64,000 nucleotides of DNA from the NCBI RefSeq assembly GCF_022448905.1, contig NZ_JAKVCW010000019.1, positions 1-64,000 of the forward strand, written 5' to 3'. The translations under genes were made by a program, and so were the position numbers. Below the pieces are notes generated by a model. The model saw only the letters and a list, made by a program, of their open reading frames with translations, was not told the origin of the DNA and did no database searches. This document shows positions 8,510 to 57,391 of the stretch, in pieces; the stretch's first letter is position 1; every line of letters starts with the position of its first letter. Source of the DNA: Shimia sp. GTDB lineage: Bacteria > Pseudomonadota > Alphaproteobacteria > Rhodobacterales > Rhodobacteraceae.

Positions 8510-9258
8510 TCAGAGTTCTACAAGCCCTAGCAGGACAGCTTTGGCCACCGCTTGTGAGGTGTTGCGTGCCTTGAGTTTTGCCTTGGCGCTGGCGATGGGT
8601 TTGTTCAAGGTGTTGGCGCTGATACACAGGCGATCCGCAATCTGCACGCGATCAAGTCCAAGGGCGGACCAGTAGATGTAGTCTTTCTCCCGCCCAGAGA
8701 GCCGCACGACGCCGTCTTTATGCTGTTGCAACATGCCGCTGTTGAGCATTTCTGCCACAGCGCGCAACGATGTTTCGTGCTCTTTCCAATAGCGGAAAAA
8801 CTCGGTGTCTGACCTGACATGACCGATGTGCAAACCGATGCCGGACGACACGGGGTTACGAGAGTGGTGGGACAATAGAAGCGTTTGGCCCCAAATCATA
8901 CCCAAGTCGTTTTCCAACTGATGCAAACGGCGGTTGGCAGGCGACGCGTCATAAGAGTCTGGATCGTCATTCCAAAAAATCTCTTCCTGACCGCGCAGCA
9001 ACAATTCGGTACTGATGTCCTCGTCCAGCAGGCGATCTTTGCCCACCGCCTCTTCCCACTCGGCAGAATAGGTATGGCGGAAGAAGGTGGCCTCAGTCAT
9101 TTTACCGGGGGTTGCCAGCCCCACCATGGGATAACCCCATAACCGACACCATCCACCCCTAATTTGTCAAAAGCGGTCAAGCACCTCAGCCAGAGCGTTT
9201 CGCCATTCTTGGTCTGCTTCAAGTCCTCTGCCAATTGTCCAATCAGGTCGAAATTCAT
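8510..9258 (-). pseudogene. LuxR-family regulator split by a frameshift
   Basis: The downstream frame (8510-9127) encodes most of an autoinducer-binding-like domain and a C-terminal LuxR helix-turn-helix (LSGREKDYIYWSALGLDR, then IADRLCISANTLNKPIASAK). The missing N-terminus is in another frame. An ATG at 9256-9258 opens MNFDLIGQLAEDLKQTKNGE and continues through GYGVIP before running out of phase near 9105-9130, a stretch rich in G and C runs. Joined, the two pieces give a normal LuxR length of about 245 residues. This is either a real frameshift mutation or a sequence error. If only the ATG at 9127 is used, the protein lacks its first ~40 residues. Confidence 0.75.
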
Positions 9259-11019: not shown

Positions 11020-13737
11020 TCACTCCGAAGCTTGTTCAAGTTGGAAGATATCGGGGGTGCAGGGTTTGCGGTTGGCAGGCATTTGGTCCGCCCCGTCGGC
11101 GCGACGGCTGCGCGAGCCACCAACTTGCAGTTTGAATTGCGGATCGGACAGTTTGCCATTGACCTCAAACGGCCAGGCGCTGCGCGCCAGAGGTTGGCCG
11201 ACGCGGCGCGGTTCGGCGCGGACGGCGATGGCGTCTTTCACCCAATCCACCATGCCGCGCACCACCATTTGCACGCTGCGGGTTTCGGCCACCACCCGCG
11301 TGAAGGTGACATTGCCCGCGTTGATTTTTACCGGCGCTTTTACGCAGACAATCTCGGTTTGGCCTGCGGCGAACTCCTGCGAAAACAGCCAGGGGAAAAT
11401 CCCGAGGCCTGCAAGTTCCAACAGGCTGGTGGCGATGGCCCCGTCGCGCATGTTGAGCGAGGCACTGCCTGCCATGGAGTTCATGAAGGCCTTGCCGGAA
11501 GTGATGTTGCCGGTCACATCAACATTGGCCGACAGTTTACCTCGCGCAGGGATATTGACCTCAAGGGCCTTGAGAATTTCACCAAAGTCCCAGCCGCTGG
11601 TGCTGCCCTGAATGCGAGCCCGGTCGGGGTTTTCAATGGCGTCCATAGAGGCGGTGACCTTGAAGAAACCGGGACCGTAGTAGAGCTCGATCGGACCCGC
11701 CTGAATCTGGCCCTCCTTGGCGATCAACTCGCTGCTCATCGAGGAGGTGCCGGCGTCGCCGACAAATTCCGCCAGTTCCAAGGTGATCGCCAGGTCCGTT
11801 TCGGTGAGGATGCGTTTGAGGCTAAAGACGTTGCTTTCCTTTTCCAGCACAAGAGGCTGAATCGGCGGGCGGCCATCGTCCGCCTCTTTGGCTTCGGCCT
11901 CCTTGGCCGCTTTGGCGGCCTTGGCGCGTTTGTTGAGTTGCACCAGGATCTTGCCACCTTCGCGCAGGTCCACAAGGCGCATACGATTGCTGAGGATCGC
12001 CCCGCGGATCACGTTGATGTCTTCGCTGAGATCAAAGGTGAGATCGGAGGTCAAGTCGGTGCCGTCGGCCCGAAAATCAAAGCCAAGCTTGGCTTCTTTT
12101 GCTGCAACTTCGAGGGTGAGGCCGGTAGACAGTTTGGAAACGCCTACAGGTTTCAGACCCAGCGCCGTCAGGAAAGGCGCGGTGTCCGCGACGCCAAATT
12201 GCAGGTCCAGCTTCATGCCTGCGAGTTCTTCAATGCTGGCGACCACCACATCTGCGTTTAATGTCCATAGGTCGGTGTCCACGGTTTGGGCCTTGAGTTC
12301 GCGCAAGCTGAGCTCACCGTCGTTGTCATTGATGACAAAATCCGCTTCCACACCGCCAAATTTGACGACCTCCTCGGAGGGCAGGTTCTTCAGCAAAAGG
12401 TCCGCCGTGCCTTGTAAATGGCCGGTTAAATCGACCAGTGCGAGGTTGAACACATCGCCAATGTCGCCTTCGGCGGTCAGGTAAGGCGCGTCTTCTGGGC
12501 CGGCTTGAAGCGTGATGTCGCGCAGGCCGAGGGTTTTCTGCTCTGATCGGTAGACATTGCCGATGGAGATGGGACCTACGCGGTCGAGGCCTTGTTCAAA
12601 GGCATTGGTCTGGATCAGCAGTTCCTCAAAGGTCAGCCGCTCCCCCGTGTTGACCACATGGGCGTGGATTTCAGTGAGTTTGAGGTCTTTCAGGCTGTTA
12701 GCATCGGCGGGCGGTTGGCCTTCGGGATGAAGGCGCGCGTCCATGTGGAAGTCAAAGCCCGCGCGGGTGAAGAGGTTGTCAACATCACCGGTGACCGTCA
12801 CGTTTTGACCTTTGCTCAGGTCCAGCGTGGTTTGCAGGTTTTCCAGGGTCAGCAGTTGCGGCGCGTTGGTGACATCTACCGACAAAGACCCGACGCCTTC
12901 GAGGCTGCGGGCGAGGCCAAGCACCTCGAACACATCGCCAATTTGGCCGGTGGTGAGCTCGAGCCGCGCGGTATAACCATGCGGGCTGTCAGGCAAACGG
13001 GTGCCGTTGTAACTCAATGAAATGTCCCCAAATTCGAGCTGATTGGTGAACGGCGCGCTGTCGGGGAATGTGCCATCCCACGTGAAGGCTTCGCCGTTGA
13101 GCGTGCCTGCGCCAGTGACAGAGGCGAGTTGGCCGTCCTGAAGCTGCTCCAGCAGGATTTTTTCTAACGCGAAGATGAATTCAAAGCCGCTTTCCTCATC
13201 GATCGAGGTCAGGCCGATGTTGGTGAAAGACACGGTACGGTCGCTGAGGAAGGTGATGATGGACGGGTCGGGCAGATCGTCTGTGGTGGCGCTGTTTTCG
13301 GTTGGGGCGGCGTCTGTTGTTTCCACCGTGGCTTCTGGCTCAAATTTGGTCCAGCTGGTGGTGCCGTCAGCCTTGGTGACCAGGTTCACCTGCAGCCCGT
13401 CAATGGTGAGGTTGTCGATGTCGATGCGGCGGTCGAGCAAAGCGGGCAGATCCAGTTCCCACTCCAATAGGTCCAGACGGGCCAAGTTTATGTCGGTGAT
13501 GTTCTCGCTAGGAATGCTGGCACCGGAGACGTGCACTTTGGTGGTGCCCGCAAGGACAACGCGCACGTCGCCGTCAATCAGGAAGGGCTGGCCGATTTGT
13601 TCGGTCAAGAGATCCGCGACAAAGTCTTTGCGAAAGCCGCTGAACAAGGGGGTCGCCAGCGCGGCCCAGATTAGCACGCCCAGCGCCAAACTGAGCACAA
13701 TCAGCCCGGTGAAAAGTCTCAAAATCCAGCGTTTCAA
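11020..13737 (-). CDS. AsmA-family inner-membrane-anchored protein
   Basis: About 905 residues with an N-terminal membrane anchor (KRWILRLFTGLIVLSLALGV) followed by a long periplasmic beta-rich body. The C-terminal AsmA region includes NVDVTGNITSGKAFMNSMAG and LNMRDGAIATSLLELAGLGI. AsmA proteins are bridge-like lipid-transfer proteins between the two membranes. I chose the TTG at 13737, preceded by AAAGGACAGG, because it places the anchor at the start. Other starts in the frame are an ATG at 13824 and a TTG at 13845. A Lys/Ala-rich segment (RAKAAKAAKEAEAKEADD) sits mid-protein. It precedes the small exported gene in the same operon. Confidence 0.9.
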   Translation of the reverse strand: MKRWILRLFTGLIVLSLALGVLIWAALATPLFSGFRKDFVADLLTEQIGQPFLIDGDVRVVLAGTTKVHVSGASIPSENITDINLARLDLLEWELDLPALLDRRIDIDNLTIDGLQVNLVTKADGTTSWTKFEPEATVETTDAAPTENSATTDDLPDPSIITFLSDRTVSFTNIGLTSIDEESGFEFIFALEKILLEQLQDGQLASVTGAGTLNGEAFTWDGTFPDSAPFTNQLEFGDISLSYNGTRLPDSPHGYTARLELTTGQIGDVFEVLGLARSLEGVGSLSVDVTNAPQLLTLENLQTTLDLSKGQNVTVTGDVDNLFTRAGFDFHMDARLHPEGQPPADANSLKDLKLTEIHAHVVNTGERLTFEELLIQTNAFEQGLDRVGPISIGNVYRSEQKTLGLRDITLQAGPEDAPYLTAEGDIGDVFNLALVDLTGHLQGTADLLLKNLPSEEVVKFGGVEADFVINDNDGELSLRELKAQTVDTDLWTLNADVVVASIEELAGMKLDLQFGVADTAPFLTALGLKPVGVSKLSTGLTLEVAAKEAKLGFDFRADGTDLTSDLTFDLSEDINVIRGAILSNRMRLVDLREGGKILVQLNKRAKAAKAAKEAEAKEADDGRPPIQPLVLEKESNVFSLKRILTETDLAITLELAEFVGDAGTSSMSSELIAKEGQIQAGPIELYYGPGFFKVTASMDAIENPDRARIQGSTSGWDFGEILKALEVNIPARGKLSANVDVTGNITSGKAFMNSMAGSASLNMRDGAIATSLLELAGLGIFPWLFSQEFAAGQTEIVCVKAPVKINAGNVTFTRVVAETRSVQMVVRGMVDWVKDAIAVRAEPRRVGQPLARSAWPFEVNGKLSDPQFKLQVGGSRSRRADGADQMPANRKPCTPDIFQLEQASE

Positions 13738-14243
13738 AGCCTGTCCTTTCGCAAGGTGCTTAGGAAGTCCGTCAATAGGTGGCCGCCCCTGCCCTTTTGA
13801 GTGCGCGTTGAAATGGCTGCGCATGCGAAACAGGAGATCCGTCAAAGATGTCTGCCCCTACCTTTGCACAGGTTTGGGTGGATTGAGAACAGCTTAGCGG
13901 GGCAAAGCGAGTTAAACCGGGTTGGGCTGGGTTGTTTACTCTTTGTTAAAGCCTTGCGCGGGCGGCGGCCGAGAACGGCACACGGTCAACACCTCCGTAA
14001 CGCATTGTAAAGAAATCTATTTCGAGAATACGGGAACGCCCGGCGCACCCAAAACACCGCAAAACCCTTCACAGGGTCAGGATTCAGGTTCGCCGCTTAT
14101 TCGCGTCAAACCTGAATGGAGTGCCACACCGCTTGCGCGTTGCTGCCACGATTGGAACACATTTCCTCCACAGCTTAGCCGTGAAGGTGAGAACTTGCTG
14201 CCGCATTTCCTCCTGGTCGCATGATAGAGAGGAAGCTGCGTAG
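13738..14243. other. Divergent intergenic region between the AsmA gene and the kinase cluster
   Basis: About 500 bases that must hold promoters for the minus-strand AsmA operon and the plus-strand kinase operon. A perfect 9-bp inverted repeat with an 18-base spacer, ATTCAGGTT at 14082-14090 and AACCTGAAT at 14109-14117, lies about 130 bases before the kinase ATG and could be an operator or hairpin. No small gene is convincing here. Confidence 0.45.
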
Positions 14244-15557
14244 ATGGATTGCGCTGAGGAAAACGTGACTGTGCTGCCTGCGGGCACCGAGCTTTTGCGC
14301 GGGCAGTACCGGATCACGCGCAGTTTGGGCCAAGGGGGATTTGGCCTGACTTACCTCGCGCGCGACAGCCTGAACCGTGTGGTGGTGATCAAGGAGTGTT
14401 TTCCGGAGCAGATTTGTCACCGTGTGGGCGCAGAAGTGGTGCCGTCCGGACCGGAAAGCGCGCCGTTTTTTGCCTCGGTTTTGGAACAGTTTCAAGCCGA
14501 GGCGCATCAGTTGGCCGGATTGGATCATCCGCGCATCGTGGGCGTGCATCAGACGTTTGCGGAAAACGGCACGGCCTATACGGCGATGGATTTTGTGGAA
14601 GGGGTGGACCTGCATGAGCTGGTGGACCACGCGCCGGGGCGGTTGACGCCGACTTTGGTGGACAAGCTGCTGCGGCAGGTTTTGGACGCACTGAACTATT
14701 TACATGACCGGGGCGTGCTGCACCGGGATGTGGCGCCGGACAACCTGATCCTGAGCGCCAATGGAGATGTGACGCTGATTGATTTTGGCGCGGCCTATTC
14801 TTCGGGAGACGCCGAGGGCGGGCAAAGCCAGCGCATGTTGGCGGTGAAAGACGGATATTCGCCACCAGAGTTCTATTGCGCCGAAGGGGTGCAAGGCGCC
14901 TATAGCGATTTGTATTCGCTGGGAGCGCTCTGTCATTTGGTCTTTACCGGCGAGGCGCCACCGGACGCGCAGACCCGGTTAGAAACTGTCGATGCGGGAA
15001 GGATGGACCCCTATGTGCCGCTGGAGTCGACGGATTTTGAAATTGATTTCCGCCTGAAACTGGCCACGGATCGGGCGCTGGCCCTGGAACCCAAAGACCG
15101 GCTGCGCTGTGCAGATGACTGGCTGGCGGTGATGGACGGGCCCATTCCCAAGCCGCTGGCGGTGTTTGATCCCGCGGTGATTGGTGTGATCGAAGAGCTG
15201 GTGAGCAAGACCAACAAGGTGCTGACACCGGGGTTGCCAAAGGCCTTGCAAAAGCCGCTCAAAGCGCTGGAAGAGGCGCGGCAGGCGCCCCCCCCACCCA
15301 AGCAATACGTCGATATTTTTGGCGATCCGATTGACGACGTTGAGGCCTACCTCAAGGAACAGGATCGGCTGTGCAAGGCCCGTGCCAGAACACCAACGCG
15401 GCTGTTGCAGCAGGGCGATTTCCTGCGCCGGTCCAGCGCGGAGCTGCCGGAAGCGCCTGCGCCCGCCAAGCCGGATGGCGAGAGCCTCCTCCACAAATTC
15501 CGTGACCGGTTGAAGGGTGACCGGTCCAACCCCAACACCCGTCTATTTCTAATCTGA
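14244..15557 (+). CDS. Serine/threonine protein kinase (Hanks type)
   Basis: 437 residues. The kinase domain spans ~14-290: glycine loop GQGGFGLTYLARD, VIKECFP with the ATP-binding lysine near residue 50, catalytic HRDVAPDN near 160, and DFGAA near 180. The usual lysine of HRDxKxxN is alanine, a variant I associate with bacterial VIKE-type kinases and compatible with activity. No membrane segment is visible. The C-terminal ~130 residues are charged and low in complexity. It is the first gene of an eight-gene cluster, 11 bases before an FHA-protein gene and two before a PP2C phosphatase, so it probably phosphorylates cluster members. Confidence 0.92.
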   Translation: MDCAEENVTVLPAGTELLRGQYRITRSLGQGGFGLTYLARDSLNRVVVIKECFPEQICHRVGAEVVPSGPESAPFFASVLEQFQAEAHQLAGLDHPRIVGVHQTFAENGTAYTAMDFVEGVDLHELVDHAPGRLTPTLVDKLLRQVLDALNYLHDRGVLHRDVAPDNLILSANGDVTLIDFGAAYSSGDAEGGQSQRMLAVKDGYSPPEFYCAEGVQGAYSDLYSLGALCHLVFTGEAPPDAQTRLETVDAGRMDPYVPLESTDFEIDFRLKLATDRALALEPKDRLRCADDWLAVMDGPIPKPLAVFDPAVIGVIEELVSKTNKVLTPGLPKALQKPLKALEEARQAPPPPKQYVDIFGDPIDDVEAYLKEQDRLCKARARTPTRLLQQGDFLRRSSAELPEAPAPAKPDGESLLHKFRDRLKGDRSNPNTRLFLI

Positions 15558-15568
15558 AGGGACATACC

Positions 15569-16609
15569 ATGCGGTTCATTCGCGACATTATTGCTGAGAA
15601 ATCCCAAGCGGCTGGTCAGGCTGACGGTGCGGCGTTGCGCTATCCGCTGCGATTGCGAGAGCAGGACCGTGCGGATGTGGCCGAGGAGCCGACACCAACG
15701 GTGCATATCGAGGCGGAACCCGCCCAGCCTGCGTCAGACGCTGCTGCGCTTGTGGCCCCGCAGCCACCCGAACCTGCAGAAGCGCCAGTGGATCTGTCCG
15801 CGATTTCAGCGGCTTTGACCGCCGCGCCGGTGGAGGCCCCTGTCGAGCCCGACATGCCCGAGCCAGAGGCCCCAAGCGATCCCTTTGGCAATCTGTTTGC
15901 AGAGGAAGCGCAAGAAGACACACTGGAAGACCACCCACTTGAAGCGCCGCGGATGCCGGAGCCGGAAATGGCACCTGCCCCACAAGTCGCAGCCCCGCCC
16001 CCTGTGGCAGAACCCGTTGCGCCACCACCACAGCCAGAGCCAGCGCGAGAGGCGCCTGCCCCTGCGGAGCCGGAAGTGGACCTGGCGGCGTTGCAGGCCA
16101 ATATGGCGGCGGCCAAACCAGCGGCGGGGCGTGGTTCCAAAGGGCGCGTAAAAACCCGGTTGCTGGGTTTCAGCGCGCCTGCCAGTCACGCGCATGATCC
16201 TATGGCACAAACGCGAGAGGCGCCGGTGTCGGCGCAGGCACAGTTCCCTGTGGGCTGGCTGGTCGTGGTCGATGGACCGGGCAAAGGCGCGTCGTTTTCG
16301 CTGCACGACGGGTTGACCCAGATTGGCCGCGGCGAAGGCCAGACCGTGCGGCTGGATTTTGGCGACACCACGATTTCGCGTGAAAACCATGCGGCGATTG
16401 CCTTTGACGGCGAGCAGCGGCGGTTTTTCTTTGGACATGGCGGCAAAGCCAATCTGGTGCGGCTGAATGGCCGTCCGGTATTGAGCACAGAGGATTTGGA
16501 CAGCAACAGCCTCATTCGGATTGGGGAAACCACTTTGCGATTTGTGGCCCTGTGCGGCGAAGACTTTGCCTGGGGTGACGCGGACGCGGGGCGCGGCGAC
16601 CTTGGCTGA
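15569..16609 (+). CDS. FHA-domain protein with a Pro/Ala/Glu-rich linker
   Basis: 346 residues. Residues ~1-200 are a low-complexity stretch rich in Pro, Ala and Glu. A forkhead-associated domain follows at ~228-325, with the phosphothreonine-binding features GRGEG, ISRENHAAI and RLNGRPVL. FHA domains bind phosphothreonine peptides, so this is a likely reader or scaffold for the kinase encoded just upstream. The ATG follows GAAGGGAC. The 3' end overlaps the PP2C gene by a few bases. Translational coupling within the cluster is therefore likely. Confidence 0.9.
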   Translation: MRFIRDIIAEKSQAAGQADGAALRYPLRLREQDRADVAEEPTPTVHIEAEPAQPASDAAALVAPQPPEPAEAPVDLSAISAALTAAPVEAPVEPDMPEPEAPSDPFGNLFAEEAQEDTLEDHPLEAPRMPEPEMAPAPQVAAPPPVAEPVAPPPQPEPAREAPAPAEPEVDLAALQANMAAAKPAAGRGSKGRVKTRLLGFSAPASHAHDPMAQTREAPVSAQAQFPVGWLVVVDGPGKGASFSLHDGLTQIGRGEGQTVRLDFGDTTISRENHAAIAFDGEQRRFFFGHGGKANLVRLNGRPVLSTEDLDSNSLIRIGETTLRFVALCGEDFAWGDADAGRGDLG

Positions 16610-17525
16610 ACTGCGCTTTGATGTGGCCACCGCGCTCTCTTTGGGCGCGCGGGAGAGGCAAGAGGACACGGTGGTGGCCGACTTCCCGTTGGGCGCGCCG
16701 ATGGGCTTTGCGGTGCTGTCGGACGGCATGGGCGGGCATTCTTGCGGGGATGTGGCCAGCGGCATCGTGGCGACGGAATTGTTTAGCGAATTGAAGCTGT
16801 TGAGCGGCGCGCCAGAGGAAATGGAGCGCAACATCGGGCCTGTGCTGCAAGAAGCTGTGGAAGCGGCCAATGGCTGCATCCAAATGTACGAGCAGCAAAA
16901 CCCGGATGCGTCGGGCATGGGGGCCACGTTGGTGGCGCCGGTGATTTTTGGGGCGCGGCTCTATTGGGTCTCTGTCGGGGACTCACCGCTCTATCTGTGG
17001 CGCGCGGGGCGGCTGTATCGGTTGAACGAAGACCACTCCTATGCGGCGCAGATCGACTTGATGCAGGCGCGTGGGTTGATGGACGCCGATGAGGCGCGGA
17101 ACCACCCGGATCGCAGTGCGTTGATCTCGGTTTTGGCGGGGGCGGAGATTGCCAAGGTGGATTGCCGGGCGGAGCCGATGACGTTGCAAGCCGGGGATAT
17201 TGTGCTGGCGACCAGTGACGGGCTGCACACCTTGGCTGACGAAAGAGTGGCGGAGGTTTTGCAGGATCATGCGAAGGCTACCGGTCAGGAGATTGGCGCA
17301 GCATTGCTGGCTGCGGTGCACGCGGAGGGCTGTCCGGAGCAGGACAACCTGTCGCTCTGCGTGATCAAAGCCGAGCATCGGGGGGAGACACAAGAGGCCA
17401 GGCCAGTATCCACGCCGCAACCGGCAGCCTCCCCCGCCACCGGCGAGGTGGTGCAAATCGATCGACGGGCGCATCGCGGTACGGTGCGCACCATTGTCAG
17501 CCTAACGCGAAAGGTCGGGAAGTGA
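16602..17525 (+). CDS. PP2C-family serine/threonine phosphatase
   Basis: About 307 residues with all main PP2C metal-site motifs: RERQEDTVV, SDGMGGH, SVGDSPLYLW, ATSDGLHTL and EQDNLSL. It should remove phosphate from targets of the neighbouring kinase. The start is uncertain: the TTG at 16602 overlaps the FHA stop by eight bases, and a GTG at 16575 is an alternative. A C-terminal tail of ~50 residues is proline-rich then basic. The stop TGA overlaps the ATG of the first GTPase gene by one base. Confidence 0.9.
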   Translation: MAELRFDVATALSLGARERQEDTVVADFPLGAPMGFAVLSDGMGGHSCGDVASGIVATELFSELKLLSGAPEEMERNIGPVLQEAVEAANGCIQMYEQQNPDASGMGATLVAPVIFGARLYWVSVGDSPLYLWRAGRLYRLNEDHSYAAQIDLMQARGLMDADEARNHPDRSALISVLAGAEIAKVDCRAEPMTLQAGDIVLATSDGLHTLADERVAEVLQDHAKATGQEIGAALLAAVHAEGCPEQDNLSLCVIKAEHRGETQEARPVSTPQPAASPATGEVVQIDRRAHRGTVRTIVSLTRKVGK

Positions 17526-18727
17526 TGCAGACACAACCAGAGCAGATCGTTGGGCAATTGCACTCCGCATTGGAGAGCGGACATGTGCCACGGCGGCAAA
17601 AAGCCTTTGGCGAAGAGATCCTCACCCACCTGACGGAGGCGGTGCGTGTTGTGGTTTTGGGGCGTCCGGGAAGCGGGAAAACCAGCCTGATAAACATGAT
17701 GCTGGGTGGCGATGTGATCCAACCGCCGCAAGACGTGCCAATTGTTGAGGTGGTCTATGGCGCAAGTGCGCAGGCCACAGTGACCTGGGCGGATGGGGCG
17801 ACGGAAACAGTTGCCGGTCATGCGCTGGAGGGGCTGGCGCAAGGCGCAGCGCGGGTTACCTATGCGGTGCCGCTGGACAGTTTGAAAACACTGGCGTTTG
17901 TGGAAGTGACGCAACCCACTGATCCCGCGGCGCAACAGGCGTTGATGCAAACGGCCTTGCAAGAAGGCCAAGTGTTCGTCTGGTGCAGCGAAGGTTTTGA
18001 CGCCTCGGAACACGCGATTTGGACCGTAGTTCCGGACGCGGTCAAAGATCACAGTTTTCTGGCGCTGACCAAGGCGGACCGGCACATTATGACCGGCGGG
18101 TTGGCAGACCAGCTGGCCGCACTGGAAGAGACCGCAGAGGAGGCGTTTTTGGGCCTGCATCCGGTGGCCACGTTGCACGCGCTCAAAGCGCGGGCGGGCG
18201 GTGAGGCGCAACAGGAGTTGTGGGCCGCGTCCGGTGGGCAGGAGTTGGTTGAGGCGGTTGAGGCGCAAGTGCGCCAGGGGCGTGCGGCGGATTTGGACCA
18301 GGCGCGGTTGCTGTTGGCGCAGTTGGGAGAGGTTGTGGAGGCCGCAAGCGACGGCGTATCCCCTGCCCCGCAGCAAAAACCTGTGTCGAGCGCGCCAGCT
18401 TTAGAGAATGAAACCGCGCTGATGGATCAGTTGCAGACGCTGCTGCAAACAGCAGCGCAGGAAATGCTAGCGGATCTTGATGCGGGCAAAATTCCCAATG
18501 CGGATGGGTTGTTGTCGCGCTGTGCCGACGCTGTGCGGGCCTTGACCTCGGTGCTTGATGCGGAAGCAGGACAAGATCCGGCAGCGGCGGATTTGCTGGA
18601 TGACGCGCGCGACGGGGAAGACACGTTGATGTTGTTGCAGGTCGAGCAGAGCCCAACGGCGGCGGAGGATGGGATCATCCTGTTGTTACAGCTCCGCAAA
18701 GAAATAGGCGCGAGGGCACAGGCATGA
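17525..18727 (+). CDS. P-loop GTPase-like protein with degenerate G3 motif
   Basis: 400 residues. A P-loop GRPGSGKTSL lies near residue 46 and a G4-like TKAD near 181. The place where a DxPG (G3) motif is expected reads VEVTQPTDP, so nucleotide hydrolysis may be impaired. The C-terminal half is helical and acidic, with leucine-rich segments but no membrane helix. A GTG three bases upstream is an alternative start. Its end overlaps the dynamin-like gene as ATGA. It may act as a partner or pseudo-GTPase for the next two proteins; that is inference. Confidence 0.8.
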   Translation: MQTQPEQIVGQLHSALESGHVPRRQKAFGEEILTHLTEAVRVVVLGRPGSGKTSLINMMLGGDVIQPPQDVPIVEVVYGASAQATVTWADGATETVAGHALEGLAQGAARVTYAVPLDSLKTLAFVEVTQPTDPAAQQALMQTALQEGQVFVWCSEGFDASEHAIWTVVPDAVKDHSFLALTKADRHIMTGGLADQLAALEETAEEAFLGLHPVATLHALKARAGGEAQQELWAASGGQELVEAVEAQVRQGRAADLDQARLLLAQLGEVVEAASDGVSPAPQQKPVSSAPALENETALMDQLQTLLQTAAQEMLADLDAGKIPNADGLLSRCADAVRALTSVLDAEAGQDPAAADLLDDARDGEDTLMLLQVEQSPTAAEDGIILLLQLRKEIGARAQA

Positions 18728-20805
18728 ACATGCAAATTCGGCAAGAGAGCAAGCCCGAGGTGCGCACATCGCGGCGGATTTCCAACCTGCGCACGGGATT
18801 GGAGGGGTTGGGCAAGCTGGGCCAAGACCTTGACAAGTTGGATCATCTGTTGGCGCAGCTGTCGCAGGTGGCGGGCAAGAACTCGGCCAAAACCGTGGAG
18901 CGGCTGCGCAAGGATGTGGTGAATTTTGAACCCACCATCACCGTTTTGGGGCAGGTGAAATCCGGCAAGACCACGTTGGTGAATGCCATGGCTGGCTGGG
19001 CGGATTTGCTGCCGTCGGATGTGAACCCCTGGACCTCGGTTGTGACCTCGCTGCACCTGAAACCGGCATCACGTCCGGCGGAAACCGGGGCGAGTTTTCA
19101 GTTTATGACCGAGGACAATTGGGACCGGTTGCTGAACCAAGGCGGGCGGATTGGCGAAATGGCCAGCCGTGCCGGTGCGGAGAGCGAATTGGCCAAGATT
19201 GGCGAGCAGATCGAGAAGGTGCGCGCCAAAGCGCAGAAACGGCTGGGCAAGAAGTTTGACCTGTTGCTGGGGGAGACCCACAACTACGGCTATTTCGACA
19301 AGAACCTGTTGGAGCGTTACATCGTTCTGGGCGATGATTTTGGCGAAGACGACAGCGAGCAGGGTCGGTTTGCCGATATTTTGTCCTCTGCCGATCTGAC
19401 GCTGAACTGTGACACGGTGCCGGTGCCGCTCTGCCTGCGGGACACGCCCGGCGTGAACGACACCTTTATGATGCGCGAGCAGGTAACCATTCAGGCGCTG
19501 CGCAGCAGTAAGATCTGTGTTGTGGTGCTGTCGGCCGGGCAAGCGCTGACCTCTGTGGACATGGGCTTGATCCGGCTGATTTCGAACCTGAAGTCGCGCA
19601 ATGTGTTAATCTTTGTGAACCGGATTGATGAGTTGCCAGACCCGGCCAATCAGGTGCCCGAGATTGAGGCCAGCATCCGTCAGACCTTGCACAACAAACA
19701 AGGGCCGGAAGATGCGGAGATCCTGTTTGGCAGCGCCTATTGGGCCAACAAGGCGCTGAGCGGCAATATTGAAGGCATGCCAGAGGTGGCCAGCAAAGCC
19801 TTGTTTGATTGGGCGGAAATTGCACTGGGTCAGCAGCATGGGCAGATGCAGCCGCATGAAATGGTGTGGGAGTTGTCCGGTATGGGCCATCTTTATCGGG
19901 CACTGTCGGAGCGGGTCATTGAAGAGCAAGGCCAGCAGCTTTTGCAGAAGACAAGCAACGCGGCGCTGACGGTGGCGACCAGCGAGCTGGCGGCAGGCAT
20001 GGTGCAGATCGGCGCCAAACAAGGCGGCAGTACCAATCTCTCGACCTATGACGCGCTCAAGGAATTTCGCAGCATCGCGGCGTTTCATCAGCAGGCCTTT
20101 GCAGAAGAGCTGGAGGCCGCCATTGCCGACTATCATACCCGCGCGGATCGGGCGCACGCCAAGTTCATAGATCGGGCGCTGCGGTCACTGCTGACGCATT
20201 TAGAGAACTACGGCAAAGACATTGTCTGGGACTACGATCCGGTGGGGCTGCGTATGCTGTTGCGCACCGCCTATTCGGCCTTTGGCGCGCGGGTGCGCAA
20301 CTTGGCGCAGGCGCGGTTTGAGGCGGCGATGACGGATGTGGCGATGCTTTATGCCAACACCTACGGTCACGCGGTGGAGGGCATCCAGATGGCGCCCCCT
20401 GCCCTGCCTGACCTGCCCGCCCCGATTGCGCTGGGACAGACCATCGCGCTGGATTTCAACGATGGCTGGTGGATTTCCTGGTGGAACCGCATTCGCGGCT
20501 TCAACGCCTTCTCCAAGCGGTTCCAGAACCTGATTGCGCGGGAAACCGAGGACTTCATGTTGCAATCCAAAGGCATTCAGACCGAGCAGGTTCGGGCGCT
20601 CGCAACCAGCTGTTTGCGCGAGTTCTTTGATCAGCACGACGAGATCATGCAGGACATCAGTGCCACGCCGCAAAGCGCGGATATCGAGAAGCTGTTCCAA
20701 AGTGGCGAGGAAGGCCAGAAGCGCGCGCAACTGGACGCGCTGACCACGCAGTTCGATGCACTATTGCAAAGCACCAAGGTTGAGGCAGGAGGGAGCTCCC
20801 AATGA
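18724..20805 (+). CDS. Dynamin-like large GTPase
   Basis: 693 residues with a complete G domain: P-loop GQVKSGKTTLVNAM near 76, a threonine-containing switch region around PWTSVVTSL near 105, G3 DTPGVND near 240 and G4 NRIDE near 299. A long helical region (~390-690) follows. Within it, DFNDGWWISWWNRIRGFN is tryptophan-rich and amphipathic and could be a membrane paddle, as in bacterial dynamin-like proteins that bind and tubulate membranes. ATGA overlaps link it to both neighbours. The cluster kinase could regulate it. The membrane role is inferred from family behaviour. Confidence 0.88.
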   Translation: MNMQIRQESKPEVRTSRRISNLRTGLEGLGKLGQDLDKLDHLLAQLSQVAGKNSAKTVERLRKDVVNFEPTITVLGQVKSGKTTLVNAMAGWADLLPSDVNPWTSVVTSLHLKPASRPAETGASFQFMTEDNWDRLLNQGGRIGEMASRAGAESELAKIGEQIEKVRAKAQKRLGKKFDLLLGETHNYGYFDKNLLERYIVLGDDFGEDDSEQGRFADILSSADLTLNCDTVPVPLCLRDTPGVNDTFMMREQVTIQALRSSKICVVVLSAGQALTSVDMGLIRLISNLKSRNVLIFVNRIDELPDPANQVPEIEASIRQTLHNKQGPEDAEILFGSAYWANKALSGNIEGMPEVASKALFDWAEIALGQQHGQMQPHEMVWELSGMGHLYRALSERVIEEQGQQLLQKTSNAALTVATSELAAGMVQIGAKQGGSTNLSTYDALKEFRSIAAFHQQAFAEELEAAIADYHTRADRAHAKFIDRALRSLLTHLENYGKDIVWDYDPVGLRMLLRTAYSAFGARVRNLAQARFEAAMTDVAMLYANTYGHAVEGIQMAPPALPDLPAPIALGQTIALDFNDGWWISWWNRIRGFNAFSKRFQNLIARETEDFMLQSKGIQTEQVRALATSCLREFFDQHDEIMQDISATPQSADIEKLFQSGEEGQKRAQLDALTTQFDALLQSTKVEAGGSSQ

Positions 20806-21737
20806 CCGCACAGGATGTAGAAATTGTGGCCCAACAAGCACCGCGCAAACCGCGCATTGCCCTGATGGGGGAGTTCAGCGCCGGAAAAAGCACCTTGATG
20901 AACCTGCTGTTGGGCTGCGACCCAATGCCGGTGCGCATCACGGCCACCCGCGTGCCACCGGTCTGGGTGCGCCATGGGCCGCGCGGGGCAACCTTGGTGC
21001 GCGATGACGGCACCGAGGCGGCGTTTGACGGGGCGGACATCAGTGAAGCGCCGATGGCAGGCTGTGAGTTGATCCGGTTTTCGATGGACTCCGATATTCT
21101 CAACCTGTGCGACCTGATTGATATTCCAGGAATTTCCGACCCCAACCTGAAGCACGAGACCTGGTTGTCGCTAATGGAAGAGGTGGATTGTGTGATCTGG
21201 TGCACCCATGCCACGCAGGCCTGGCGGCAATCCGAAGCTGCGTTGTGGGAGCAGGTGTCCCAACAGATCAAAGGGCCAAACCATCTGGTGGTCACACAGT
21301 TTGACAAACTGCGCTCCGAGCGGGATCGCGCGCGGGTTTTGGCGCGGCTTGAGGCGGAGGCGGGAGACGCCTTTGATGCGATTGTGCCGATTGCCACGTT
21401 GGAGGCGATCAACGCGGGCATGGACGAAACCGCCTGGCGCAACAGCGGCGGGGCGGCGTTGATTGAACGCATGGTGGCGATGTTGGTGGGAGAGGCCGAG
21501 GCTATGGCCACGGCGCAAGGGGATGTTAACGCGCCCGCCGTAGAAGAAACACAAGACCACGCGCCCGAGGCGGAGACGCCTGTGGCAGCTTCATCTGAAG
21601 CGCCATGCGCTAAGGACGATGGGCCGAAGGTAGTGCCGCGACGGGTGCGCCCGAAGTCGCCCAATCCGGTGCGGCCTTCGAGTGAAGAGTTGCAAGACAT
21701 GCCGCTACGCGCCCTGGGCGGTGGGGGCGACATTTGA
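20802..21737 (+). CDS. Dynamin/Era-like small GTPase
   Basis: 311 residues. The G domain occupies ~10-225: P-loop GEFSAGKSTLMNLLLG near 23, a switch threonine in ITATRVPPVW, G3 DIPGISD near 106 and G4 TQFDKL near 167. The GEFSAGKST form is characteristic of dynamin-like GTPases. Residues ~230-311 are acidic then basic low-complexity sequence that could be a regulatory or phosphorylated tail. Translation is coupled to the large dynamin-like gene by an ATGA overlap. Paired dynamin-like proteins often form hetero-oligomers, so these two may act together. Confidence 0.87.
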   Translation: MTAQDVEIVAQQAPRKPRIALMGEFSAGKSTLMNLLLGCDPMPVRITATRVPPVWVRHGPRGATLVRDDGTEAAFDGADISEAPMAGCELIRFSMDSDILNLCDLIDIPGISDPNLKHETWLSLMEEVDCVIWCTHATQAWRQSEAALWEQVSQQIKGPNHLVVTQFDKLRSERDRARVLARLEAEAGDAFDAIVPIATLEAINAGMDETAWRNSGGAALIERMVAMLVGEAEAMATAQGDVNAPAVEETQDHAPEAETPVAASSEAPCAKDDGPKVVPRRVRPKSPNPVRPSSEELQDMPLRALGGGGDI

Positions 21738-21800
21738 GGTGATCTCCCCCTTGCGGCAGAAAGCCAGAGGAGGTCGCGTGACGTTGGAGGACAGCGATCT

Positions 21801-22163
21801 GTGACGGTTGCAGACTGCCTTGAGGCCCTACGATCCGACATTCCTGGCTGCCAGGTGGCAGCTTTCGGGGATGTGGCCGCGCGTCTGATCCTCAAGGCGT
21901 CCCATGATGCAACTGTGCCGCGAGAGAAGCTGGATGGTCTCTGCGCTGAGGCGGCACGCTGTTTTGCAATGACTGAGGGCACTGGCGATCCAAAGGCAGA
22001 CACGCAAAACAGTATTGTGATGACCGCGCAGGACATGCGGGTCTATGTGCGGGCGCAGGGCCGTGCAGATTTCATTTGCCTGCTTTGCGCTTTGGACAGT
22101 GATCCGGAAGAGGTTGTTCCCAAAGGCGTCGCGGCGCTGAGCCAATTGGCGGGGGACGCGTGA
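21801..22163 (+). CDS. Small protein, possibly Roadblock/LC7-like
   Basis: 120 residues from a GTG at 21801, 63 bases after the third GTPase. The pattern CLEALRSDIPGCQVAAFGD, then a helical middle, then SIVMTAQDMRVYVRAQGR and a strand FICLLCALD resembles the alpha/beta order of Roadblock/LC7 proteins, which regulate small GTPases (for example MglB with MglA). This is pattern matching only. Its stop overlaps the next GTG as GTGA. I would otherwise call it a conserved unknown of the cluster. Confidence 0.6.
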   Translation: MTVADCLEALRSDIPGCQVAAFGDVAARLILKASHDATVPREKLDGLCAEAARCFAMTEGTGDPKADTQNSIVMTAQDMRVYVRAQGRADFICLLCALDSDPEEVVPKGVAALSQLAGDA

Positions 22164-22915
22164 TCGCGCCGCGCAAAGATATGCCGACCGCTCCTGACAC
22201 AGAGGTGACGGACGCGCGTGTCGCATTGCAGCGTTTGGCAACGCCAGAGGTGCAGGCCTATGGCGCGTGGCGCAGCTTTGGCTCTGCGGCGGAGGCTGTT
22301 CGGGCGGTTATTGGCGAAATTGGCGAAGTGGTGCTGGCGCGGAGGATTGCTGTGTCGGTGCGGAACAGTGACGCCGCGCTGCTACTGACCATCAGCAACC
22401 GGCATTTGGTGGCGCTGGAGGGGATCTCTCTGAATGCCAGCGATACCGATGCGCACGACGTTGTGGCTGCAATTGGGAGAGCGCTGGATTGCGCCAAAAG
22501 CCTGCGGTTTGACATCGCCACGCGGACGTCTGAGATGCCGAGCACGGCGCGGTCATGGTCTTGGCAGGCTTTGCTGGAGGCGCTGGAAGCGCCGCGCAAA
22601 AACGCGGTTGCGCCTGGCATTTTTGCGGATGTGAAGGCGCTGTCTGTTGCCTGGCTTGAGGTGGAGACCGGCGAAAAAACTGGCCCGGAGGCAGCGCTGC
22701 GGGCGTTGCACCATATGGCCAAAGCCCGCGGGGATTTTGTGGGGCAAGTGGACCAGTTCCGGCAAGATCGGTCCCATTTGGCGTTGTTTTCCATGACCGA
22801 ACAGATGTTTGCCGTCGAAGTCAGCTGGCAAGGGAACTTGCTATTGGCGATATGTGAGGCATCCACGCGGGAAGATCTGCTCGCGATGTGGCGCGGCTTG
22901 GTCGCAGAGACGTAG
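22160..22915 (+). CDS. Cluster protein of unknown function, possible Roadblock-like halves
   Basis: 251 residues beginning at GTG 22160, coupled to the preceding gene by a GTGA overlap. Two halves of similar layout are seen. The first has RRIAVSVRNSDAALLLTISN and LVALEGISL, and the second has ALSVAWLEVETGEKTGPEAA and MFAVEVSWQGNLLLAIC. The second half especially resembles a Roadblock/LC7 fold. No membrane segment, signal or catalytic motif is visible. It is the last gene of the kinase-GTPase cluster before the intergenic GntR operator. Confidence 0.6.
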   Translation: MIAPRKDMPTAPDTEVTDARVALQRLATPEVQAYGAWRSFGSAAEAVRAVIGEIGEVVLARRIAVSVRNSDAALLLTISNRHLVALEGISLNASDTDAHDVVAAIGRALDCAKSLRFDIATRTSEMPSTARSWSWQALLEALEAPRKNAVAPGIFADVKALSVAWLEVETGEKTGPEAALRALHHMAKARGDFVGQVDQFRQDRSHLALFSMTEQMFAVEVSWQGNLLLAICEASTREDLLAMWRGLVAET

Positions 22916-30828: not shown

Positions 30829-33800
30829 TCAGAAAATGAAATCTGTCGCGTCGATCACTGCGATATTCACATTTAGCAACCGGATGGTTGTGGTGCCTTC
30901 GACAATCTGCGCATCCAAGCCCACCTGTGTGAGGTTGGCCAGCACATCGCCAATGTTGTTCAGCCCGGCGGCTAGGGACAGGTCGATTTGGTCGCTTCCG
31001 TCCTGATAGTCGGTCACAAAATTGGTGGTGCCGTCGCCGCTGGCAAAGACAAAGACGTCCGCATCCGCGCCCCCGGTGAGGGTATCGCTGCCGCCGGCGC
31101 CGTTGAGCGTGTCATTGCCGTCGCCGCCAAGCACCACATCGAGGGTATTGCCGGTGCCGGTGAAACTGTCGTTGCCCGCGCCGAGGTCGTAATCGATGCG
31201 GTTTTGATTGACGCCGTTGGTCTGCTGGCCCGTCAGGTTGTTGCCAAACACCGTATCATCGCCGCCGCCGGTGGAGACGTCCACGTTGGCGACGACGGTG
31301 TTAAGCCCGTAAAGCTGCAGCCCCTGCAGGTCGTAGGTGTTGGCATTGCCGGTGCCAAACATCGTGCCGCCCACAAGTTGCAGCCGTTCCACGCCTGCGC
31401 CCATGACGTTGCCGATGCCGTCAAAGTCAAAGCTCTCAAACACAAAACTCGCCCCGGCCAGGTTGTGCAGCGTGTCAAAGCCTGCGCCGCCCACAATGGT
31501 GTCGAGCTCGGACTGATCGCCTGCGCGCAGGAAGATCAGATCGCTGCCGTCGCCGCCATCAATCAGGTCGCCGCCGGCGCCGCCTTCGAGCGTGTCATTG
31601 CCATCGCCACCCAAAATCGTATCGCTGCCCAGCCCGCCAAAGACCACATCCGCCGACACGCCCGCGCCGGTGAAGCTGTCGTTGCCCGCGCCGAGGTCAT
31701 AATCGTAGCGGTTTTGGTTGACGCCGTTGGTCTGCTGCCCGGTCTGGTCAGAGCCCACAACCGTGTCATTGCCACCGCCGGTGGCGATCTCCAGGTCGCT
31801 GACCACGGTGTTCATGGTCAAAAACCGCACGCCGGTGAGGTCAAAGATGTCGTTGCTGCCGGCGCCCAGCACCGTATGCGCCGCCAGCGACAGTTCTTCG
31901 ATCTCCAGCACGTTGAAGTTGGGCCCATCAAAGGCGTTGATCTGCTGCAGGGTCACGTCGCCGCCGGTGGCATTCACCAGCCGGTCGATGCCCGCGCCGC
32001 CGAGGTACTCTTCGAGTTCGTGGTTGGAGCCCGCGGTTAGCACCAGATGGTCGTTGCCCAAGCCGCCCTCGAGCCGGTCCAGACCGGCGTCGCCTTGCAG
32101 CGTGTCGTTGCCCTCGCCGCCTTGCAGCAGGTCGTTGTCTGCGCCGCCCAGCAGGGAATCTGCGCCCAGCATCCCGCGCAGGGTGTCATCGCCGCCTTGG
32201 CCAAAGACCACGTCGTTCATCAGCCCTGCGCCGGTGAAGTCATCCTGTCCCGCGCCGAGGTCATAGTCGATCCGGGCCTGGTTGACGCCGTTGGTTTGTT
32301 GCGCGGTGGCCGCGCTGCCGATCACCGTGTCATTGCCCGCGCCGGTGGTGACCTCCAGATTGGTCAGAACGGTGTTCAGGCCAATGAACCGCGTACCGTC
32401 AAAGTCAAACAGCGTGTTGGCGCCGGTGCCATTGATGCGGAAACCGTTGAGCTGCAGGATCTCGACGCCGGAGCCGTTCACCGTCTCGGTGGCGTCGTCA
32501 TAGTCAAACACCGAGAAAGTGAAGTTGGTGGTGACACCGTTGGTGATGATGTCAGCCGTGCCTGCGCCGCCAATAAATGTATCGAGCTCGCTGTCTTCGC
32601 CTGCGAGCACGGTGAAAGTGTCGTTGCCACCCTGCCCGTTGAGGAAATCGCCGCCCGCGTTGCCGCGCAGCATGTCATTGCCATCGCCCGCGAGCACCGT
32701 GTCACTGCCCGTACCGCCAAGCACGACATCGATGTTGACGCCTGTCCCAACAAAGCTGTCGTTGCCTGCGCCGAGGTCATAGTCGATGCGGTTTTGATTG
32801 ACGCCGTTGGTCTGCTGGCCCGTCAGGTTGGTGCCAAACACCGTATCATCGCCGCCGCCGGTGGAGACGTCCACGGTGGCGACGACGGTGTTAAGCCCGT
32901 AAAGCTGCAGCCCCTGCAGGTCGTAGGTGTTGGCATTGCCGGTGCCAAACATCGTGCCGCCCACAAGTTGCAGCCGTTCCACGCCTGCGCCCATGACGTT
33001 GCCGATGCCGTCAAAGTCAAAGCTCTCAAACACAAAACTCGCCCCGGCCAGGTTGTGCAGCGTGTCAAAGCCTGCGCCGCCCACAATGGTGTCGAGCTCG
33101 GACTGATCGCCTGCGCGCAGGAAGATCAGATCGCTGCCGTCGCCGCCATCAATCAGGTCGCCGCCGGCGCCGCCTTCGAGCGTGTCATTGCCATCGCCAC
33201 CCAAAATCGTATCGCTGCCCAGCCCGCCAAAGACCACATCCGCCGACACGCCCGCGCCGGTGAAGCTGTCGTTGCCCGCGCCGAGGTCATAATCGTAGCG
33301 GTTTTGGTTGACGCCGTTGGTCTGCTGCCCGGTCTGGTCAGAGCCCACAACCGTGTCATTGCCACCGCCGGTGGCGATCTCCAGGTCGCTGACCACGGTG
33401 TTCATGGTCAAAAACCGCACGCCGGTGAGGTCAAAGATGTCGTTGCTGCCGGCGCCCAGCACCGTATGCGCCGCCAGCGACAGTTCTTCGATCTCCAGCA
33501 CGTTGAAGTTGGGCCCATCAAAGGCGTTGATCTGCTGCAGGGTCACGTCGCCGCCGGTGGCATTCACCAGCCGGTCGATGCCCGCGCCGCCGAGGTACTC
33601 TTCGAGTTCGTGGTTGGAGCCCGCGGTTAGCACCAGATGGTCGTTGCCCAAGCCGCCCTCGAGCCGGTCCAGACCGGCGTCGCCTTGCAGCGTGTCGTTG
33701 CCCTCGCCGCCTTGCAGCAGGTCGTTGTCTGCGCCGCCCAGCAGGGAATCTGCGCCCAGCATCCCGCGCAGGGTGTCATCGCCGCCTTGGCCAAAGACCA

Positions 33801-45800: not shown

Positions 45801-46055
45801 ATGAGCAAGAAAATCCCCTCCCCCTGCATCGACGTATGCAAGTTCCGTCGCGAAGGCCATTGCTTGGGGTGTTCGATGACCAAGAGCCAAAAGAAGCTCT
45901 TCAAGTCGATCAAGAAGCCAGATCAGCGAGAAGGCTTTGTTCAACTTTTGGTGTGTCAGCAGGCACAAATGGGCCGGTACACACATTGGGCACCGGCCTA
46001 TCGGAAGAAGCTCGACAAAAAGAAGGTCAGGGTAAATTTCCCGCTAACCAAATAG
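45801..46055 (+). CDS. DUF1289-domain protein
   Basis: 84 residues with the DUF1289 cysteine pattern at its N-terminus, SPCIDVCKFRREGHCLGC, which may bind metal, followed by a basic region. The ATG at 45801 follows AAGAGGTCC; a long upstream extension of the frame is antisense to the RND remnant and is not supported. It ends one base before the convergent dps stop. The function of the family is not established. Confidence 0.85.
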   Translation: MSKKIPSPCIDVCKFRREGHCLGCSMTKSQKKLFKSIKKPDQREGFVQLLVCQQAQMGRYTHWAPAYRKKLDKKKVRVNFPLTK

Positions 46056-46526: not shown

Positions 46527-46625
46527 TTTGAATACCTCGATACGTCCGTTCTTGGAAACCTTTGGGCGTACAATCGCCGCCCGCTACCCTTATTTATAGC
46601 ATCGGGAGAGAATTCCAACCACTTT

Positions 46626-46640
46626 TTAGAATTATTCTAA
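46626..46640. promoter_or_regulatory. Irr box (iron control element) upstream of dps
   Basis: TTAGAA-TTA-TTCTAA is a perfect palindrome matching the alphaproteobacterial ICE consensus TTAGAAnnnTTCTAA. It lies about 100 bases from the dps ATG and upstream of its TATAAA, and overlaps the stop codon of the neighbouring upstream gene. Confidence 0.7.
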
Positions 46641-47065: not shown

Positions 47066-47233
47066 CTTCGGGTCTCGCTACCTGTGAACGGTCTTAATCG
47101 CTCATATGGCACAATTTAAGAATCCTGACAATAATACTTGGTTAAAAGGCCGGAGCAAGCCTCAGCTGCCTAAAGAAGAACACGTCTTCGTTAGCCAGCC
47201 GCAGCACTTGCCTTCCACCGACAGCAGCGCAGA

Positions 47234-51839: not shown

Positions 51840-51843
51840 TCCC

Positions 51844-54911: not shown

Positions 54912-54992
54912 GCTGAGGCCAAGTACGTCATAGTGCCTGCAAACGGCGCTGTGACGTGACACGGATCACCGTAAGCGTTTTGGAGACATACT

Positions 54993-57387: not shown

Positions 57388-57391
57388 CGGT

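Follow-up and report, generated by a model that had tools for sequence, protein, structure and literature searches.

A conserved eight-gene cluster of marine Rhodobacteraceae joins a kinase–FHA–phosphatase triad to dynamin-like GTPases and a predicted Roadblock-fold protein

Genes of the cluster

In the stretch of Shimia sp. DNA that we analysed (64,000 nucleotides, hereafter the window), eight + strand open reading frames occupy positions 14244-22915 in the order K, FHA, PP, G1, DLP, G3, S7, S8, which confirms the eight-gene cluster reported at this place by a first-pass annotation:

14244..15557, + strand: K, Ser/Thr protein kinase, 437 aa (Pkinase, 8.7e-32)
15569..16609, + strand: FHA, Pro/Ala-rich N-terminus followed by an FHA domain, 346 aa (NCBIfam FhaB and GarA profile matches)
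16151..16171, + strand: codons of KTRLLGF, candidate phosphothreonine switch at Thr196 (motif conservation)
16602..17525, + strand: PP, PP2C phosphatase with a proposed TTG start at 16602 in an ORF that opens at 16521 (Stp1_PP2C_phos)
17522..18727, + strand: G1, P-loop protein, a degenerate G3 paralogue (motif counts, hhalign to G3)
18724..20805, + strand: DLP, dynamin-like protein, 693 aa (Dynamin_N, G motifs)
20802..21737, + strand: G3, short dynamin-like GTPase, 311 aa (Dynamin_N, conserved motifs)
21801..22163, + strand: S7, predicted Roadblock/LC7-fold protein, 120 aa (AlphaFold2, Foldseek)
22160..22915, + strand: S8, 251 aa, with two alpha/beta domains and placed tentatively in the longin/Roadblock superfamily (AlphaFold2, Foldseek)

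Overlaps of 4 or 8 bases are found at five of the seven junctions, overlap having been claimed for most of them: the spacings are +11 (kinase/FHA), −8 (FHA/PP2C, counted from the TTG start at 16602), −4 (PP2C/G1), −4 (G1/DLP), −4 (DLP/G3), +63 (G3/S7) and −4 (S7/S8). The fixed protein ratios that were read from these overlaps can at most be inferred from them, and G3 and S7 are separated by a 63-base gap in the window.

Among solved chains, K is nearest to PpkA (5hnv, 7e-38) and then to PknB (6.7e-27), and its relatives retain the catalytic motifs HRD (75/77) and DFG (77/77). A hydropathy scan found no transmembrane stretch in K of the window. The same scan placed a hydrophobic helix C-terminal to the kinase domain in 12 of 14 mostly long kinases hand-picked from relatives and sister triads, including some from clusters like that of the window (L149, L151, L041, L044 and L062), and none in the kinases of L057 and L080. 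PP matches Stp1_PP2C_phos at 1.4e-39, below the family cut-off, as well as the solved PP2C 5iti (2e-22) and PppA 6jkv (1.5e-14), and DGMGG is kept in 78/78 of its relatives.

The FHA assignment is weaker than those of K, PP, DLP and G3. The Pfam FHA family was not among the matches to the window protein at E≤0.1, and the FHA-like Pfam family Yop-YscD_cpl (9.3e-5) and the NCBIfam families FhaB (1.6e-7) and OdhI (5e-5) all match below their cut-offs; a profile of FHA relatives matches GarA structures (2kkl, the best GarA match, 5.3e-6; 2kfu, 1.3e-5). About 30 residues N-terminal of the domain, TR[LIV][LI]GF is invariant in 78/78 homologues, of which 71 carry the strict motif and the remaining seven all carry TR[LI][LI]GF. 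The distance from motif to core is exactly 30 residues in 46 of the 70 homologues measured, and the TR motif was counted 85 times against 5.4 in shuffled sequences. TR-type motifs also exceed the chance expectation in K, G3 and S7. By its position, Thr196 of KTRLLGF resembles the phosphothreonine of GarA/OdhI and is a candidate switch; the GR and SR..H of the FHA domain, invariant in 34 aligned sequences, would permit binding of the phosphorylated threonine by the protein's own FHA domain. A second protein carrying the KTRLLGF DNA pattern was sought and rejected. The pattern was present in 9 of 31 genomes, and its reversed control gave 6 matches; six of eight loci were the cluster's FHA gene and two were others, with the ninth match lying inside an FHA match.

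Of the three P-loop GTPases claimed earlier, at least two of them dynamin-like, DLP and G3 are borne out, whereas G1 makes the count of three a loose one, because its P-loop is present in 78/79 loci and its switch-II motif D-x-P-G in only 3/79. DLP and G3 match Dynamin_N at 2.8e-13 and 3e-11. GTPase motifs are complete in 81/81 DLPs, and the DLP profile matches the solved structure 5owv (1.4e-10) and the bacterial dynamin-like protein 2j68 (4.1e-9). A WW..WW.R.RG patch, conserved in the DLP alignment, may touch the membrane, and the G3 alignment conserves GEFSAGKSTL and D.PGISDP. Although the P-loop matches of G1 in the window are all weak (Dynamin_N 0.059), G1 of a sister locus matches Dynamin_N at 2.3e-8 and the G1 and G3 profiles are homologous (hhalign E 6e-30), so that we classify G1, from its motifs, as a degenerate G3 paralogue that lacks the switch-II motif.

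The two small proteins have no convincing Pfam, NCBIfam or PADLOC family. The S7 model (AlphaFold2, mean pLDDT 91.6) fits the helix-strand-strand-helix-strand-strand-strand-helix order of Roadblock/LC7; its best Foldseek match is the Roadblock protein 3kye (E 8.6e-7, TM 0.80), followed by MglB and Ragulator. S7 is thus predicted to have the Roadblock/LC7 fold of the GTPase regulators MglB and Ragulator. At the sequence level, Robl_LC7 (PF03259) matched one of 58 S7 family members, at E 0.3, and nothing in the window's genome, and S7 gave no Roadblock match among PDB sequences. For the S8 model (mean pLDDT 88.6), Mon1-Ccz1 is the best match (5.5e-3), followed by Ragulator and MglB, none reaching E≤0.001 and with unrelated matches intermixed; we assign S8 tentatively to the longin/Roadblock superfamily. 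A comparison of the S7 and S8 profiles detected no similarity.

Conservation and distribution

All eight genes stand in order in 69 of 81 loci (the window and its 80 best relatives), a sample biased to close relatives because only the best 80 of 495 stretches were used; in a second set of 40 regions, 26 have the full order. The full set is also found in order on a Leisingera plasmid, and DLP relatives occur on 18 plasmid records. A single draw of 292 genomes from the order had 98 with DLP, 94 with the FHA protein and 90 with both, where 31.5 joint genomes are expected (Fisher 4e-60, a test that ignores phylogeny and does not address adjacency); the exceptions are 8 of the 98 DLP genomes without the FHA protein and 4 of the 94 FHA genomes without DLP. 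The conserved synteny that the first-pass annotation had proposed as a check was found, and so was co-occurrence. In wider draws, matches are few: 2 of 385 genomes in a class-level draw (E≤1e-20), both Rhodobacteraceae, and 10 of 398 in a phylum-level draw (E≤1e-6), eight of them Rhodobacteraceae and the rest comprising a DLP-G3-like pair without a triad in 20 kb (L225) and one partial match (4.4e-7). The cluster is present in many marine Rhodobacteraceae.

The earlier description of the cluster as self-contained agrees with its variable surroundings, since the 638 ORFs that flank the loci form 440 clusters, and even the most frequent one occurs in 19/80 loci, at mixed positions. Within Shimia, three of nine genomes carry the cluster. 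The AsmA neighbour is present in four of the six non-carriers (G198, G269, G381, G406) next to other genes, so that no clean empty-site junction was seen in the genus. Rearranged loci keep the same parts, as in DLP-G3-S7-S8-DLP-G1-K-FHA-PP (L065) and G1-DLP-G3-S7-S8-DLP-G3 (L061); in L144, G1, S7 and S8 are absent within the contig.

A candidate phosphothreonine switch and competing readings

As a description of a genetic unit, the earlier proposal of a phospho-signalling module wired to dynamin-like GTPases has good support; as a whole, its interpretation is supported in part, and the role in membrane remodelling, stress or defence that it suggested is conjectural. We infer the phosphorylation target, the binding partners, the membrane action and the purpose of the cluster as follows. 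K would answer a signal, which in several relatives it probably senses itself across the inner membrane, and would phosphorylate Thr196 in KTRLLGF. The FHA domain would then hold the phosphothreonine, in cis or in trans, as in GarA/OdhI, which would change the partners of the FHA protein until PP2C resets the switch. Acting at the membrane, the dynamins DLP and G3 would form the effector pair, and G1, the degenerate paralogue of G3, would have a regulatory part; S7, together with S8, would serve the GTPases as a platform or as an activating or exchange partner. Using GTP, the pair would tether or remodel the inner membrane, most probably to maintain the envelope. That a phosphothreonine switch controls the DLP-G3 pair through the FHA and Roadblock proteins, likely in envelope maintenance, is the reading we put forward tentatively, at slightly less than even confidence. 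It draws on the conserved gene set and order, the co-occurrence of DLP and FHA, the threonine motif, the predicted fold of S7, the hydrophobic helices of related kinases and the proteins beside sister triads. Against it stand the missing sequence match of S7 to Roadblock, the weak fold match of S8, the genomes that have DLP or the FHA protein but not both, the TR-type motifs of other cluster proteins, and L144.

Some DLP-G3 pairs lie in fetched stretches that contain no triad (L064, L069-L071, L226, L228, L230-L235), so the GTPases can do without one, and triads without a nearby DLP also exist. It is conceivable, though rather unlikely, that one operon holds two modules, a triad directed at something else (a transporter or transcription) and a separate dynamin-Roadblock set. 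The strong co-occurrence of DLP and FHA argues against this, as does the PP/G1 border, which allows a 4-base stop/start overlap in 54/77 loci. Moreover, among 16 regions in which additional FHA genes lie, four (L238, L243, L247, L248) still have G1, and three of these four also keep S8, or S7 and S8.

We consider anti-phage defence, in which K would sense infection and the dynamins would seal or destroy the membrane, to be unlikely. Dynamins have precedents in defence. The patchy presence in genus and order and the plasmid-borne DLP relatives would fit such a role, as would matches of K to the PADLOC kinases PD-T4-6 (1.7e-47) and mad6 (2.1e-42), of LeoA to DLP (6.4e-8) and of LeoBC to G3 (1.1e-7). 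However, such kinase matches are expected from many Ser/Thr kinases, no PADLOC family is matched at E≤0.1 by FHA, PP2C, S7 or S8, and the gene set of a listed PADLOC system is not present, the matches being confined to the kinase and to weak ones of dynamin or P-loop type. DLP was found in no phage record, and some sister triads, part of them with G1, S7 or S8, adjoin PBP-OmpA, DctP or PilJ-domain proteins; the neighbours of some triads are predicted periplasmic binding proteins. The 127 flanking proteins gave PADLOC matches to seven families (mad3 in five, mad8 in four, AriA in two, and TniQ, PycTIR, TIR effector and CSD_V in one each), a rate that stands without a random control; those to mad3, mad8 and AriA come from five ATPases of P-loop or ABC type. 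A defence island is not supported.

A detached regulator of type VI secretion, in which PpkA-Fha-PppA would act on a distant T6SS with the GTPases as passengers, draws on the nearness of K to PpkA and on a triad composition that equals the threonine phosphorylation pathway outlined in PMC5995506, but it is very improbable, and we reject it for the window's genome, in which no TssC/VipB sheath gene (PF05943) was found (with 14 genomes as controls, the gene was detected in Escherichia coli) and the T6SS-like triad has another target. The sheath gene is present in 33 of 98 DLP carriers against 46 of 194 other genomes (odds ratio 1.6, p 0.09), from which, together with its absence here, we take the cluster to be independent of T6SS. 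The order in which the GTPases follow the triad is also conserved.

Comparison with known systems

Little is known, to our knowledge, about what regulates bacterial dynamins. We know of no earlier pairing of a Roadblock protein with a dynamin, and we found neither such a pairing nor a published description of the kinase-FHA-PP2C-dynamin-Roadblock combination in the openly licensed PMC literature. Kinase, phosphatase, a predicted Roadblock protein, two dynamins and the likely kinase substrate, for which there is a candidate site, stand together in one operon-like block. The cluster may reveal how bacteria control dynamins, and its presence in many culturable roseobacters makes dynamin switching in bacteria directly testable. 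It is possible, albeit doubtful, that the cluster represents a new signalling class in which an FHA switch phosphorylated on Ser/Thr toggles dynamins by way of Roadblock and longin-like proteins: a re-used T6SS-type phospho-relay and a design counterpart of Ragulator/Rag or Mon1-Ccz1.

With the PpkA-Fha-PppA pathway the cluster shares the adjacent kinase, FHA protein and PP2C; it differs in its dynamin-like neighbours, in the missing sheath gene and in its PP, to which PppA is less close than other bacterial PP2C are. MADS defence shares a mad6-like kinase and a weak likeness of G1 to mad8 (1.4e-4), a P-loop match that says little because mad8 also matches ABC-type ATPases, and no other mads family is among the matches listed (25 of 37 for K).

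In GarA/OdhI, as in the cluster, a conserved N-terminal threonine motif precedes one FHA domain, and GarA is among the solved structures that the FHA profile matches best. The predicted periplasmic binding proteins beside some sister triads have a precedent in GlnH-GlnX-PknG-OdhI/GarA, where such a protein feeds a kinase and an FHA protein, and the motif there is ETTS rather than KTRLLGF (PMC8546545). In contrast to GarA/OdhI, which control metabolism, the cluster adds an adjacent PP2C and GTPases.

Like MglA-MglB and Ragulator-Rag, the cluster encodes a predicted Roadblock-fold protein beside GTPases. In excerpts of PMC9481161, the GTPase MglA is regulated by the Roadblock protein MglB, and the Roadblock partners named are Ras-like or Rab/Rag GTPases, not dynamins; the GTPases of the cluster are dynamin-like, and S7 lacks detectable Roadblock sequence similarity.

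Two adjacent dynamin-family GTPases are a feature shared with the bacterial dynamin pairs, represented by 5owv (which we take to be Campylobacter DLP1/DLP2), BDLP 2j68 and LeoABC. DLP and G3 belong with these by Dynamin_N and their G motifs, membrane binding and self-assembly being putative, while the cluster differs from them in its short G3 and in having a degenerate third paralogue, a candidate phospho-switch and a predicted Roadblock protein attached.

Layout and conservation of the eight-gene cluster

The cluster encodes a Ser/Thr kinase (K), an FHA protein, a PP2C phosphatase (PP), a P-loop protein (G1), a dynamin-like protein (DLP), a short dynamin-like GTPase (G3) and two small proteins (S7 and S8), and is followed by a GntR/FCD regulator gene. 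The genome is 4.29 Mb in size; its nearest named relatives are Shimia, and DLP is 98% identical in an uncultured Shimia.

11020-13845, opposite direction: AsmA-family gene, about 400 bases 5' of the cluster
14244-22915, + strand: eight-gene cluster, from open reading frames read in the window

The overlapping junctions described in the first-pass annotation were found at five of seven positions (FHA/PP, 8 bases; PP/G1, G1/DLP, DLP/G3 and S7/S8, 4 bases each), but K/FHA and G3/S7 are separated by gaps of 11 and 63 bases. A sequence scan gave no sigma-70-type promoter match (2.3 in shuffles) and terminator-like sites at about chance level (11 vs. 9.9 expected), so that the scan neither favours nor breaks an operon.

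DLP is encoded in 49 of 198 family genomes, the window's own counted. Of the other 48 genomes, 39 supplied 40 regions for analysis, the nine left aside having mostly weak or cut matches; a profile search found all eight genes in order in 26 of the 40 regions. Four more keep the cluster order except for an absent or exchanged gene: L039 and L055 at contig ends, L056, which begins at a contig end and in which S8 precedes S7, and L059, without a detected kinase upstream of FHA. The remaining 10 show other arrangements, extra copies, or DLP-G3 by itself. In a second set, the best 80 of 495 stretches encoding relatives, taken from named organisms, plus the window, the complete order was found at 69 of 81 loci, and nine of the 12 incomplete ones come within 300 bases of a stretch edge. 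S7 was not detected in L128, L144 is without G1, S7 and S8, and in L146 the K-FHA-PP triad is absent from the 1.2 kb upstream of G1. The proposed eight-gene cluster is real and its order conserved in relatives. The flanks have little in common: their 638 ORFs form 440 clusters, of which the most frequent is found at 19 of 80 loci, in varying positions.

A single draw of 292 genomes from the order had DLP (E ≤ 1e-20) in 98, cluster-type FHA (E ≤ 1e-18) in 94 and both in 90, counted as presence per genome regardless of adjacency, vs. 31.5 expected when kinship is ignored; G395 has a partial FHA match that lies on a different contig. Within the window's genus, three of nine genomes carry DLP. The class draw yielded no DLP outside the window's family, and the phylum draw outside the family yielded one DLP-G3-like pair and one partial match. 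DLP was absent from all phage records searched, and its relatives are present on 18 plasmid records, of which a Leisingera and a Ruegeria plasmid were inspected. On the Leisingera plasmid, kinase, FHA, PP2C and two dynamins are annotated as such and G1, S7 and S8 are left hypothetical; the annotation of the Ruegeria plasmid reads dynamin, dynamin, hypothetical, hypothetical, dynamin, dynamin, kinase, FHA, PP2C.

Elsewhere in the window, a LuxR-type regulator lies at 8510-9127; among 127 cluster-flanking proteins of 36 relatives, five match an autoinducer synthase and 10 a response regulator domain. A 2253-aa protein with cadherin-like, Ig-like and RTX calcium-binding repeats is encoded at 30829-37590 (- strand); its gene contains a tandem duplication of 303 bases at 36196-36801, 92% alike, and a 27-base array that recurs at 32087 and 33677. 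From 46000 to 64000, where cytochrome oxidase subunits and a nitrite/sulphite reductase are encoded, G+C drops from about 0.60 to about 0.51-0.56.

Signalling proteins, GTPases and small proteins

K is a complete Ser/Thr kinase, with PpkA nearest among solved kinases, and PP is a PP2C whose DGMGG motif is present in 78 of 78 relatives. In the FHA protein a single FHA domain follows a long Pro/Ala-rich N-terminus; the protein's library matches are weak and a Pfam profile search did not list the FHA family, while its family profile matches GarA structures, including an entry titled Rv1827 pThr 22. Before the domain stands [KR]TR[LIV][LI]GF (KTRLLGF in the window, with Thr196 the candidate phosphothreonine), in strict form in 71 of 78 homologues and legible in the remaining seven, with 30 residues between the Thr and the FHA core in 46 of 70 measured. 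T[RK]-hydrophobic motifs number 85 in FHA vs. 5.4 in shuffled proteins, and FHA is the only cluster protein with one in every non-redundant member (77/77). This motif class is not restricted to FHA, since K (23 vs. 10.3), G3 (24 vs. 9.1) and S7 (20 vs. 2.2) also exceed their shuffles; PP, G1, DLP and S8 are near or under chance. The motif Thr, the GR and SR..H residues invariant in aligned FHA domains and the solved GarA relatives together point to a putative phosphothreonine switch. According to PMC8546545, PknG phosphorylates GarA/OdhI at an N-terminal Thr, and its input is proposed to come from GlnH via GlnX.

Of the three P-loop GTPases initially annotated, DLP and G3 are indeed dynamin-family members by Pfam match and conserved motifs, but G1 retains the P-loop in 78 of 79 loci and D-x-P-G in only three of 79. 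Given also its homology to G3 in profile-profile comparison, G1 is probably a degenerate, regulatory copy of G3.

S7 was not detectable as a Roadblock protein in family-profile and PDB-sequence searches. Its confident predicted model (pLDDT 91.6; element order H-E-E-H-E-E-E-H) had 83 Foldseek matches at E ≤ 0.001, of which the best 50 were all Roadblock/LC7-group (best E 8.6e-7), including Streptomyces Roadblock, MglB, MglC, archaeal Roadblocks, Ragulator subunits and a dynein light chain, which we take to belong to this group. The S8 model (pLDDT 88.6) repeats the S7 element order in its C-terminal half and had no Foldseek match at E ≤ 0.001; Mon1-Ccz1, Ragulator and GATOR1-Rag lead its weak matches, with unrelated proteins mixed in, and a likeness of the modelled S8 to the S7 fold and to the Mon1-Ccz1/Ragulator group is tentatively suggested.

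Sister sets and apparent module mixing

A hydropathy scan revealed no membrane helix in the window's K; one follows the kinase domain in 12 of 14 mostly long kinases hand-picked from relatives and sister triads. Additional FHA matches mark 16 regions, some of which carry K-FHA(-PP) sets and no DLP within the stretch. Such sets adjoin PBP-OmpA or DctP proteins (L244, L247, L248) or a PilJ-domain protein (L239), occur with G1 (L238), G1 and S8 (L243, L247) or G1, S7 and S8 (L248), or stand alone (L242, L249); three other scanned neighbours (L066, L238, L240) had no Pfam match. These varied neighbours suggest that a single core combines with inputs that face the envelope and with GTPase outputs.

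The 20 kb fetched for each of L226, L228 and L230-L235 contain DLP-G3 pairs, often in tandem, and no kinase triad; these pairs are a simpler family of dynamins within the same bacteria. In L229 and L236 the stretch fetched has an S7-S8-DLP-G3 set and no triad, so S7 and S8 accompany the GTPases. More distant FHA-PP2C-kinase triads occur in L251 and L253, the former adjoining a trypsin-FHA fusion, an ABC ATPase and an FGE-sulfatase-domain protein.

Candidate functions

A defence system is not supported: PADLOC returned kinase matches and weak dynamin or P-loop matches for the cluster proteins. Seven families were matched among the 127 flanking proteins, the mad3, mad8 and AriA matches tracing to five P-loop or ABC-type ATPases and the others being TniQ, two TIR-type families and CSD_V. 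A T6SS regulator was rejected for this genome, which has no TssC/VipB; TssC/VipB occurs in 33 of 98 DLP carriers vs. 46 of 194 other genomes of the 292-genome draw.

Searches of openly licensed papers turned up no description of the cluster. Our favoured reading, to which we give slightly less than an even chance, is a dynamin device under phosphothreonine control that serves to maintain the envelope. The parts of the cluster belong to known families, and no known kind of system combines them.
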